From a virus: a DNA stretch of 35,936 bases. Each line of letters begins with the position of its first letter. The stretch's first letter is position 1. The stretch is from positions 1-35,936 of IMG/VR virus record IMGVR_UViG_3300009192_000016. One strand, written 5' to 3'. The position numbers and the translations under genes were made by a program. Below, piece by piece: positions 2,925 through 35,936 of this stretch. Under the pieces are notes generated by a model. That model saw nothing but the letters and a program-made list of their open reading frames with translations. It was not told where the DNA came from and made no database searches.

Positions 2925-3205
2925 TACTTTTTTTATATTTGTTTTTTGTAAAATTATTGTAAAATATAAATACAGTATATAAATATATAGTATATAATGT
3001 GTACGTAATATGTTTGAGATGTTAGGGGTGATGTATATGATAATTACGTGTAACTTTTAAAAGTGTTTCTTTAATAACGTATTATTCTAATAAATAGTTT
3101 TAAATTCTTCTTTTAGATAGTTAGTTTTAAATTGATTAGATTAAGTAATTGTTATTTCTCATTTTTTGATAATCAAGACAAATGAAGAGAGGAAGTACTC
3201 AATAC
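2925..3205. other. AT-rich upstream region of the pPIWI_RE-like gene
   Basis: The stretch is very AT-rich with repeated TATA elements at about 2965-2998, including TATAAT at 2993-2998 and TTGTAA boxes at 2946 and 2957. No pair has ideal 17-bp spacing, so any promoter for the following gene is only suggested. No gene is visible. The neighbouring 2406-2723 is also without a supported gene. Confidence 0.35.
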
Positions 3206-4405
3206 ATGGAAAAATTACGGTTATTAACATTTAAAAATATAGTAGAGCCACTTTTAAAGGAACATGTCTCATTTATATATTTTCCTATTGAATGGCTAGA
3301 CATTGTAGAGATACATTATAAGACATTTTTATTAACTAGTAAGTTAAAGCGTTTAAATGAAAGATTGTATGATATGTTTTCTGATATATTGTTTATTCAG
3401 CATAATCCGTATGTATTAAATGAAAATACGCCATGGATTGTGTCAAAAGAACCAATTAGGCAAGAACAACTTGATTATATATTTCAAAGTTGGTATGAGG
3501 TCATTCATGATTGGAAACCGAATCAATTAATGGAACCGCCAAAATATGAATGGCATGACGATTTGATTTCGAATGTAACAGTATTACATGATAGTGAAAC
3601 GTTTTCTAAATGGGTACCCGCATTAATTTCACATGTTTTTTGTGTACAACCTATACGAATTGAGAATAAAAATGAAGAAATCTATTTTTCTCCACTTCGA
3701 TCACAAAATATTTGTGAGGCAATGTCAGAGCCGATTAAAGATGAAAAAACACAAGACTTTTTCGCCTATGTATACCGATTTGAATGTATAACTCGTGGTG
3801 GTGAGAATATTCCATTATTAAAGGTTACAGTAGGTATTCGGAGATTCTACCAAGAATATAACCATCCCGATATCCCTTTACTTTTGCGACGAAAACGAGG
3901 CATGATATTGATTTCTACTTCAGAATTTGCATCAGATAATAAAAAAATGCGGTTTGTAAAGTTAAAAGTACAACAAGCTACAAACGGTATGAAATGGATT
4001 AAGTTATTTAGAACATTAAAAGATGATTTTCAAATAGGTGGAGAAATTGAATTAGACCATATTGTCCAATATCCGAAAGATTATATTGTCGGAACAAATA
4101 GAAGAGTATTACTTCCGTATAATGAGAGAATATATAAAGTGCAAGGTACTAAAAAAAAGCTAGGTATAAAAGTAAAGGAGAAAGGATATCTATTTAAAGA
4201 ATTTCAGCGGAAATTCTCTCATTTCACATTACTGCCAGAATGCAAAAGGGTAGCAACAAATAATGAAAATGAATTATTATCATTATACCCATCTAAATCC
4301 GCCTATAACAAGAGGTATTTGCGCCTTATTAAATACTATAGCCCACAATTTGCCCACGAGATTTTAAAAAATCATCATATTGATTCACTGCGGTTTCTTC
4401 CATAG
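3206..4405 (+). pseudogene. pPIWI_RE (DUF3962)-like gene, 5' part interrupted by prophage
   Basis: About 399 codons are open. The ATG at 3206 is preferred over the in-frame ATG at 3182 because an AGAGAGGA site lies at 3186-3193. The protein starts MEKLRLLTF and contains the FIYFPIEWLDIVEIHY segment, a repeated W/P pattern (NTPWIVSKEPI, then WYEVIHDWKP) and a VGIRRF beta segment. To me these match the N-terminal X region of pPIWI_RE proteins. Full-length members are far longer and carry MID and PIWI/RNase H domains, none of which is present here. The last 25 or so codons (from about 4329) overlap the integrase 3' end and are therefore phage-derived. I infer that the prophage recombined into this gene and the 3' half lies at the other prophage end. 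Family assignment is from pattern memory; an unrelated large protein remains possible. Confidence 0.55.
4270..4335. other. Probable left prophage attachment site (attL) zone
   Basis: The host-like reading frame passes into the end of the integrase gene here, and phage attP normally lies just beyond int. The core cannot be fixed because the right end is not in the window. A direct repeat of part of this stretch is expected there. Confidence 0.4.
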
Positions 4406-5492
4406 ATTTTGTTACATGTAGATAAACATCTGCTGTCATATTAATAGTGGTATGTCCAAGGCGCTCAGAAACATATTTTATATTTGCTCCACTTTGTAAC
4501 AGATGTACAGCATGTGTATGCCTGAAGCCATGTAATGTAATGTATTCGAAGCAACCATTTTTGCATGCTTTTTTCAAAAAAGCTAGCGTCGAAGCTTGTA
4601 ACATACAAGAATTATCTTCATTGGTAAACACAAAGTTATAATCCTTATAATATTTTCCGTTTTTTAAGGTGCTTTTAGCTTGTTCTTTTTTTATCGTCTT
4701 TAAAAGTGCTAATGTAGAAGCATCCAAAGTAAGTGTTCTTATACTACTTTTATTTTTAGGTGGTCCGAATTTTATAGATTGATTTCTTTGAGTGGTAATT
4801 AAAGTTTTGTTAATATAGACTTGTTTTTTTTCAAATTCTATATCATTCCATTGTAACGACAAACATTCTCCGATTCGTAAGCCAGTTCTCGATAAAAACA
4901 TAAATAGAGAATAGTATTTAAAAGTAGCTTGTTCATTTAAAACGTAGTTTAAAAATGATTCTAATTCATCAATGTCAAAGCATTTAATTTTTTTTCGATT
5001 GTCAATTACCTTATGTTCTTTGATACTAATTTTATTGGTTGGATTCTTAGTGAGAATTTCAAGTTCATTAACCGCTATTTCCAATGCATTGTGCATTGTA
5101 GAGTTAATCAGTAAAACCGTTTGCTTACTAAGTTTTTTTAGAAGATCATTTATAAATTTTTGGTATTTAACACGTGTTAAATCTTTTAATTTTATGTTAC
5201 CAAATGCAGGTAATATATACAATCGAATATTCTTTTTATAAACTTTATATGTTTGTTCAGAAATAGTTCCTTTTTTATAAGTATCTAGCCATTCATACAT
5301 ATAAGTGTTGAATGTTAAATTACTAATGTTTATGCCAATCCCGCTAGCTAACTTTTCTTCAACCTTAGCAGCAGCTAATTGTGCCTCTTTCTTTGTTTTA
5401 AATCCACCTTTAGATGTTTCTTTGTACTTCCCTAACTCTTTATATCTAACACGATATTCCCATTTGTCCTTACGTTTTCTAAAACTCGCCAT
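4329..5492 (-). CDS. int: Prophage tyrosine integrase
   Basis: This 387-aa protein integrates and excises the prophage by site-specific recombination. The ATG at 5492 follows GGAG with 8-nt spacing; a GTG at 5501 is in frame but overlaps that site. The N-terminus (ASFRKRKDKWEYRVRY) is the AP2-like arm-binding domain seen in ICEBs1/Tn916-type integrases, and the SAM-like core-binding domain follows. The catalytic domain shows Arg in SRTGLRIGE, Lys in the IKFGPPKNKSS turn, His-X-X-Arg in LHGFRHTHA, His in LGHTTINMTADVYLHV, and the Tyr nucleophile in that same segment. All five catalytic positions are present, so the enzyme looks intact. Its 3' end overlaps the interrupted host gene, which marks the left prophage boundary. 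Confidence 0.95.
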   Translation of the reverse strand: MASFRKRKDKWEYRVRYKELGKYKETSKGGFKTKKEAQLAAAKVEEKLASGIGINISNLTFNTYMYEWLDTYKKGTISEQTYKVYKKNIRLYILPAFGNIKLKDLTRVKYQKFINDLLKKLSKQTVLLINSTMHNALEIAVNELEILTKNPTNKISIKEHKVIDNRKKIKCFDIDELESFLNYVLNEQATFKYYSLFMFLSRTGLRIGECLSLQWNDIEFEKKQVYINKTLITTQRNQSIKFGPPKNKSSIRTLTLDASTLALLKTIKKEQAKSTLKNGKYYKDYNFVFTNEDNSCMLQASTLAFLKKACKNGCFEYITLHGFRHTHAVHLLQSGANIKYVSERLGHTTINMTADVYLHVTKSMEETAVNQYDDFLKSRGQIVGYSI

Positions 5493-5557
5493 TGTAATCA
5501 CTCCATTCTATTTTTAAAGAATGTTCTTCTTTTATGTGTAAAAATATATAGTGGACT

Positions 5558-5983
5558 TCAAATGAATCTTTCCATTTGTTTAGGTATTCCATAATGCTGT
5601 AATAACTCTTGTTTGGTTTGTATGTAGTAATCATGATGACTTCCATCTATAAGAAATCTTGTTGCAAAATAATTTGCTTCAGCTTCTATACGGATTTCAG
5701 AACAAAGTGATATCGTAGATAATTTAGGGGTATTTTCATTTGGATGAAAGATAGCATGTCCTAATTCATGAAAACAGGTGAATACTTGATTTTGATATGA
5801 AAGTCGTTCGTTAATATGAATAAAAGGGATACGAGATATTTTGTGATAGTATCCAAAAATATCTCCTAAGTCTTCTGTAATGACGACAATTCCCTTTTCT
5901 TCAGCAATAAGAAATGGATCCCTGGTGCTATATTGTCTAAGTAGTTTATCTATTGCTAAATTGATTTGCTGTTTTGAAACCAA
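5558..5983 (-). CDS. ImmA/IrrE-family metallopeptidase
   Basis: This 141-aa protein starts at TTG (5983) after an AGGAG site. It carries the zinc-protease signature HELGH in FTCFHELGHAIFHPNE, with a downstream acidic ligand region in RIEAEANYFATRF. In ICEBs1 and related phages, ImmA cleaves the HTH repressor encoded next to it, which relieves repression after a signal. Here it lies 15 bp downstream of the repressor gene on the same strand, the usual order. I infer the same role: induction by repressor proteolysis instead of RecA-stimulated self-cleavage. Confidence 0.9.
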   Translation of the reverse strand: MVSKQQINLAIDKLLRQYSTRDPFLIAEEKGIVVITEDLGDIFGYYHKISRIPFIHINERLSYQNQVFTCFHELGHAIFHPNENTPKLSTISLCSEIRIEAEANYFATRFLIDGSHHDYYIQTKQELLQHYGIPKQMERFI

Positions 5984-5998
5984 CCAGATCCGCTCCTA

Positions 5999-6421
5999 TC
6001 ACTTCTCGTTTCTGTATTTATTAGGTGTGAATTTCTTTTTAGCCATTTGCTTTCCTAATCTAAGAGAATTTTCTAATGAGACAATTAACAATTGTCTAGT
6101 TTCCTCTGACATAGGTTCAGAGTCTTTTGAAAAAGCAAGAGCCTCCGATTTACTCATATCTTCTATTAATTCTTCTAATTTCTTTTGTATATCTTTTTCA
6201 TCCTTCTCTGTAAGTTCCCAGTACTCTTTGTTAGTTCTACCTAATAGGTAGTCAACACTAACGTTGAAATAATCTGCCACTTGTTGAAGTTTATCAATAG
6301 CAGGTTTTTGCGTTTTCCACTTATACAGTGAATTTTCTCCCATATTTAGCTGCTTTGCTAAATCGGATAGTGATATTCCTTTCTTGCTCGCAAGCTCCTT
6401 AATTATGTTGAATGTAGACAT
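5999..6421 (-). CDS. XRE-family phage repressor
   Basis: This is a 140-aa protein. The ATG at 6421 follows AAGGGTGA, and an upstream in-frame extension to 6493 has no site. The N-terminal helix-turn-helix is clear (ISLSDLAKQLNMGENSLYKW, then AIDKLQQVADYFNVSVDYLLG). The C-terminal part is charged and helical and lacks the Ser-Lys peptidase of CI/LexA-type repressors. That fits a repressor inactivated by the neighbouring ImmA-like protease. It is divergent from the Cro-like gene, with three palindromic operators between them, so it probably represses the early promoter and its own. Confidence 0.93.
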   Translation of the reverse strand: MSTFNIIKELASKKGISLSDLAKQLNMGENSLYKWKTQKPAIDKLQQVADYFNVSVDYLLGRTNKEYWELTEKDEKDIQKKLEELIEDMSKSEALAFSKDSEPMSEETRQLLIVSLENSLRLGKQMAKKKFTPNKYRNEK

Positions 6422-6456
6422 ACAAATCACCCTTATTAAAGCTACGAACATTTTTC

Positions 6457-6470
6457 TATCTAATCGGATA
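6457..6470. promoter_or_regulatory. Operator palindrome, copy 1
   Basis: TATCTAATCGGATA is one of three related 14-bp palindromes (consensus TATCCAATTGGATA). It lies about 36 bp upstream of the repressor start, where it would block repressor transcription. Confidence 0.7.
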
Positions 6471-6486
6471 TAAAACCATTGACTTT

Positions 6487-6500
6487 TATCCAATTGGATA
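6487..6500. promoter_or_regulatory. Operator palindrome, copy 2 (perfect)
   Basis: TATCCAATTGGATA is a perfect 14-bp palindrome 30 bp (centre to centre) from copy 1. A plus-strand TTGACT at 6479-6484 with TAAACT 17 bp later would place this operator in the spacer of a rightward promoter. On the minus strand, TTGGAT within it could serve as the -35 of the repressor promoter. Confidence 0.7.
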
Positions 6501-35652: not shown

Positions 35653-35672
35653 CTTTTGGGGAGATGAGAACA

Positions 35673-35903
35673 ATGGAGGATGCAATTTTCAATTCAATGA
35701 TGCAACAAGGAGCATTCGCAGCGTTATTCGTGTGGATGCTTTTTACTACGCAAAAAAAGAATGAACAGCGTGAAGAGCAATATCAAAAGGTCATTGAAAA
35801 GAACCAGGGTGTAATTGAAGAACAAGCAAAAGCCTTTAGTTCATTAGCAAATGATGTATCAGATATCAAACAAAAAATTATGGGGAATGGTGATGTAAAA
35901 TGA
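35673..35903 (+). CDS. BhlA/UviB-like holin-type protein
   Basis: This 76-aa protein starts at ATG 35673, 9 nt after GGGGAG; the ATG at 35664 touches that site. One membrane segment (GAFAALFVWMLFTT) is followed by a charged coiled coil (KKNEQREEQYQKVIEKNQGV). This is the layout of BhlA/UviB-family bacteriocin and holin-like proteins, which disrupt the membrane at lysis. Its stop overlaps the next start (AATGA), so the lysis genes are coupled. Confidence 0.85.
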   Translation: MEDAIFNSMMQQGAFAALFVWMLFTTQKKNEQREEQYQKVIEKNQGVIEEQAKAFSSLANDVSDIKQKIMGNGDVK

Positions 35904-35936
35904 AAAAATCTATTAAAGTATTAAGTTCAGTTGCAA
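35900..35936 (+). CDS. Start of next lysis-module gene (partial)
   Basis: The ATG overlaps the holin-like stop. Only MKKSIKVLSSVA is visible: Lys-rich then hydrophobic, as at the start of a signal peptide or membrane protein. A second holin or endolysin gene is expected here, but the identity cannot be read. Confidence 0.5.
   Translation, partial: MKKSIKVLSSVA

Follow-up and report, generated by a model that had tools for sequence, protein, structure and literature searches.

Why does an open reading frame (ORF) that resembles a pPIWI_RE gene end inside a phage integrase gene? The question is raised by the IMG/VR virus record IMGVR_UViG_3300009192_000016, of which positions 1 to 35,936 (35,936 nucleotides in all) are referred to below as the window. 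The ORF lies at 3206-4405. It is very likely that a temperate siphophage has split a standalone chromosomal pPIWI_RE gene, that the gene is a recurrent prophage target, and that loss of PIWI-RE is a consequence of the integration.

The interrupted gene and the attachment core

The 5' part of the host gene, comprising the X domain and residues 1 to about 358, occupies 3206-4278 on the plus strand. The ATG at 3206 is preceded by a GAGGAAG ribosome site, and an in-frame alternative start at 3182 lengthens the ORF. The family name proposed in the initial annotation is borne out by the profile search, in which the ORF product matches Pfam PF13111 (pPIWI_RE_X) over residues 17-265 (E = 2e-17; 63.8 bits, cut-off 30.5). 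The PADLOC PprPIWI profile PDLC02426 is also matched (E = 5.7e-122), and because only positions 3-348 of its 718 are covered, the ORF product corresponds to the N-terminal portion of a larger protein. As the annotation further held, no MID or PIWI domain is reached by the ORF according to the Pfam and PADLOC matches, and PF13032 (the RNaseH/PIWI part) was not found in a domain search of the window record. A natural end near residue 375-399 is excluded, since both the family profile and the relatives run far beyond residue 399.

The overlap of the ORF with the integrase is real: the stop codon (4403-4405) sits 77 bp within the 3' end of the convergent integrase gene (4329-5501, minus strand). 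The gene is not broken at this overlap, as had been proposed; the junction is a 13-bp core, AAAATGAATTATT (4266-4278, plus strand), which is the attL core of the prophage. Identical 13-bp cores are found at attL and attR in the two pairs of loci that represent both ends of a prophage (L004/L074 and L006/L075), once per prophage end, and the window contains the core a single time. No longer word is common to both ends, while the longest word shared by any of 300 random pairs of 213-bp sequences is 11 bp.

The host/phage junction thus defined falls at residues ~354-358 of the ORF, and the final ~41 residues are encoded by phage DNA (4279-4405, plus strand). This tail, which reaches the 3' end of the integrase gene and is not part of the host gene, has 34% identity to the empty site. 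In lysogens L004 and L007 its stop is already at residue 371, so the tail is not conserved. A conserved function for the part of the ORF that overlaps the integrase was considered and rejected, because the stop position varies.

In relatives that are empty at the window's site (site 1), uninterrupted sequence spans the site: its left side is 84% identical to attL and its right side 85% identical to attR, whereas the mismatched pairings reach only 34% and 25%. One further locus that fitted the empty-site pattern, L083, was rejected as an unrelated phage.

Eight further viral records (L002-L008 and L048) proved to have this left end in a scan of viral contigs, and the identical junction is therefore present in nine independent records. 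A scan with the 3' half recovered two of the matching right ends: L074 shares its contig with L004, and L075 with L006. This places the 3' part of the gene ~37 kb from the 5' part. The expectation that the 3' half would be found in frame at the right end of the prophage is thus confirmed in these sister records, the window itself ending before that point. The 3' part, as seen in L050, L073, and L074, carries the domains PF13032 (RNaseH_pPIWI_RE, 5e-27) and PF18157 (MID, 8e-8). When the flanks are joined at the core, they form a single frame of 790 amino acids (aa) in L004/L074 or 796 aa in L006/L075, and the 790-aa product gives one continuous alignment to positions 3-717 of the 718 in the profile, at 890 bits.

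With the reading frames arranged in this way, no full-length protein can be produced in the presence of the prophage, and lysogens would be expected to have lost its function. As the joining of the flanks shows, the frame would be restored exactly if the two cores recombined; excision and reversibility presumably occur in life. There is good support for a disruption of the gene by lysogeny that is reversible in principle.

Alignment A1 shows candidate invariant residues, among which the family-specific R and E residues and the catalytic aspartates may lie. A structure prediction of the 3' half had a pLDDT of 35 and was not used, and a search of solved structures returned non-significant matches only (E of 0.09 or worse). 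No pPIWI match to the 5' part was found in plasmid and phage records, and none to the 3' part in phage records. Two scans of genome contigs gave no confirmed relative, from a scanned set that may leave out near records.

Two attachment sites in one gene

A second attachment site, with the core CAAGAATATAA, lies ~415 bp upstream of site 1 (3851-3861, plus strand). More than 40 records have other prophages at this site, and 44 loci match residues 1-218 only. In the window the site is uninterrupted: the 150 bp to its left are 100% identical to L009, and identity to L050 over the 150 bp to its right is 90%. L036 and L050 are both ends of one second-site prophage of 39.9 kb, and L050 is uninterrupted at site 1. 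Each lineage therefore serves as an empty-site control for the other, being uninterrupted at the other's site, and the whole gene is covered by overlapping natural segments. The second-site prophages carry a different tyrosine integrase, only ~33% identical to that of the window.

When the prophages were clustered (left 9.5 kb, 50% coverage), three groups were obtained at site 1 and six at the second site. At least three phage lineages use the former and about six the latter. Among host alleles that are identical over the 5' part, the integrases differ at a synonymous divergence (dS) of 0.15-0.34, and this combination of identical alleles and diverged integrases indicates separate, repeated, and recent insertions.

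Of the 52 lysogens, 50 have an open 5' frame. The 5' part has an omega of 0.11; for the 3' part, comparisons between distinct alleles give 0.21-0.25. These values indicate that the gene is kept by selection in the population, probably when uninterrupted, and is hit repeatedly. The open halves were rejected as proof of kept function, since the insertions look recent and repeated. The record set samples prophages, not strains.

Two observations concern individual elements at the second site, the one occupied in L050. The integrase frame of one prophage is truncated (L027:3628-4293, 221 aa), and this prophage may be locked in the gene. Another element (L073:7182-9375) occupies the site in a more distant allele, the 3' half of which has 67% identity; its right end contains ORFs resembling GNAT/ASCH-type proteins, named by eye.

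The prophage and the chromosomal neighbourhood

The prophage body extends from 4279 to the end of the window at 35936, from primase to holin, and the record stops before attR. The complete element measures ~37.0 kb by the contig coordinates of L004 and 36.6 kb by those of L006, so the window lacks ~5 kb at the right. The gene for the tyrosine integrase (390 aa; PF00589 E = 7e-29, PF14659, PF14657; phrog_1 E = 2e-86) lies ~50 bp inside the core, at one prophage end. It is followed on the same strand by genes for an ImmA/IrrE-type metallopeptidase (5558-5983, minus; PF06114 E = 3.5e-18) and a CI-like helix-turn-helix repressor (5999-6493, minus; PF13443 2.5e-8, PF01381 1.2e-6). Matches to PHROGs and Pfam in the remainder include the primase, an ERCC4-type nuclease, TerL, portal, major head protein, and tape measure (PHROGs), and a BhlA holin at 35664-35903 (Pfam).

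The neighbours of the pPIWI_RE gene include collagen-like and BclA-type exosporium genes. The host probably belongs to the Bacillus cereus group, as these BclA-type genes and the DUF3959/DUF3995 neighbours suggest. Genes for a restriction endonuclease (REase) or the DinG helicase were not found in the 10 kb upstream of the gene in L004 and L045, nor in the 2.8 kb that follow it in L074.

Other traces of phages are present upstream. A segment of 158 bp (1762-1918), 1.3 kb upstream of the gene, is ~79% identical to the attR flank of the prophages at the site occupied in L050 (L050:9849-10006) and is possibly a scar left by the right end of another prophage; 1772-1915 also matches the record of Stenotrophomonas phage TS-12 (82%). 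In L004, a terminase-like ORF (5025-6083, PF03354), located outside the prophage and ~5 kb upstream of the PIWI-RE gene, represents a further phage remnant.

Explanations for the choice of target

Standalone pPIWI-RE genes were described in several Bacillus species by Burroughs, Iyer, and Aravind in 2013, who named one B. thuringiensis protein, and RNA-dependent restriction was predicted for the three-gene REase/DinG/pPIWI-RE operon (PMC3702460). The X, MID, and RNaseH modules of the standalone family are shared by the gene analysed here. In contrast, the word 'prophage' does not occur in that paper, whereas the present gene is prophage-disrupted and has no REase or DinG partners; it is the standalone Bacillus form, not the three-gene restriction system. 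PADLOC lists PprPIWI as candidate defence, and the label 'defence gene' is a hypothesis, a literature prediction resting on the three-gene operon.

The only member with biochemical data that was found, PsPIWI-RE of Pseudomonas stutzeri, belongs to the same family by name. It acts as a nuclease on DNA with an RNA guide and on RNA with a DNA guide, and knockout of the gene confers ciprofloxacin sensitivity (PMC10991935). It differs from the present case in that the gene is intact, the phenotype is one of ciprofloxacin tolerance, and no phage test was made. No test of the function of any Bacillus PIWI-RE was found in the literature.

The preferred reading, a standalone gene split by a temperate phage, may be put in the following steps. 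The tyrosine integrase inserted the phage at a 13-bp attB within a coding sequence of ~790 aa. Integration parted the X-domain half (residues 1 to ~358), which keeps its own start, from the MID and RNaseH/PIWI half, which lies at the far prophage end without the start of the gene. The integrases most likely exploit a conserved but dispensable chromosomal gene.

The event is of an ordinary kind, with an unusual and recurrent target. In SPbeta in spsM, skin in sigK, phiSa3 in hlb, and phIS3501 in hlyII, a functional phage likewise resides in a host coding gene, the shared core is short, and exact removal restores the frame. The present case differs from these in the PIWI-RE target and in the use of two unrelated integrases at two sites of one gene, and excision and regulated reconstitution are here hypothetical. 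Insertion sequences in CRISPR-Cas (PMC10359306) are similar in that a mobile element inactivates an immune-type gene; in that case, however, transposition is random and under selection, whereas here the integration is site-specific and the immune role of the target is only predicted.

Three points weigh against the preferred reading. No intact full-length gene is present in any single host contig, its coverage being pieced together from overlapping segments; excision was not observed; and two distinct integrases in one 2.4-kb gene are more than this plain account demands.

The last point bears on an alternative of anti-defence or regulatory lysogeny, according to which phages evolved insertion here because breaking PIWI-RE lifts a barrier to phage or plasmid DNA, with excision restoring the gene. 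Several observations favour it: one gene is the common target of two distinct integrases and of about nine phage lineages, insertion at either site separates the PIWI domain from the start, the gene is under strong constraint, and an anti-invader role is predicted for the family (PMC3702460). On the other hand, a resident phage would benefit only once inside, the standalone form is without REase and DinG, and the PIWI-RE knockout gave a replication-stress phenotype (PMC10991935). Moreover, in a survey of large serine integrases, competence genes are enriched as targets and defence genes are not (PMC10083194).

Relatives of the window's integrase (72-73% identity) also sit in unrelated genes, one at the 3' end of a putative yhaM-like gene with OB-fold and HD domains (L066:11187-12143) and another inside a putative rbsA-like ABC transporter gene (L068:11167-11562). 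This use of other genes points to ordinary target drift of the integrase family, so that no adaptation has to be assumed for the PIWI-RE site. Considering both sides, anti-defence lysogeny is unlikely, while phage selection for PIWI-RE loss is possible. More doubtful still is the full version, in which standalone PIWI-RE acts as a chromosomal barrier against temperate phages, and two or more integrase lineages independently evolved an insertion that would turn it off in the lysogen and return it intact on phage loss.

Alternatively, the loss of PIWI-RE may shift the handling of replication or SOS stress and thereby tune prophage induction, a benefit unrelated to the restriction of invaders. 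Quinolones induce prophages via the SOS response, and this is counted in favour of such an effect. The evidence for the phenotype itself comes from one study in a different phylum and would extend to the Bacillus form by analogy; the explanation is improbable.

Even less probable is a developmental switch, in which the prophage exits during sporulation and the gene is rebuilt in the mother cell, as in sigK/skin, spsM/SPbeta, and gerE/gin. Such switches are known in Bacillus, including B. cereus (PMC4191935, PMC5595907), and the exosporium neighbours are suggestive. However, there is no evidence of PIWI-RE acting in spores, and the elements, which belong to several lineages and occupy two different sites, are full phages, while a switch coupled to development would be expected to be conserved.

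It is equally hard to credit that the split halves still work as separate proteins. Both halves are open in nearly all lysogens, and the 3' half in L050 has a plausible start, an in-frame ATG at L050:10055 behind a GAGG-like site. Recent and repeated insertion, however, accounts for the openness, the only start candidate for the 3' half at site 1 is a weak TTG, and the 5' parts are frameshifted in L048 and L052. Finally, the idea that the gene is uninterrupted, and that the ORF is either a naturally short X-domain protein or a product of misassembly, might be suggested by the absence of the right end from the window; it is refuted by the nine records that share the junction, the two contigs that hold both ends, and the frame restored by joining.

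Lysogens with the gene broken at two defined points occur in nature, as do strains in which it is open, and disrupted and intact alleles are thereby both at hand for comparison. If PIWI-RE has a defence role, phages would be using the choice of attB to disarm the host reversibly; if it has none, the case argues for some other role of the gene that is dispensable for part of the life of the cell.
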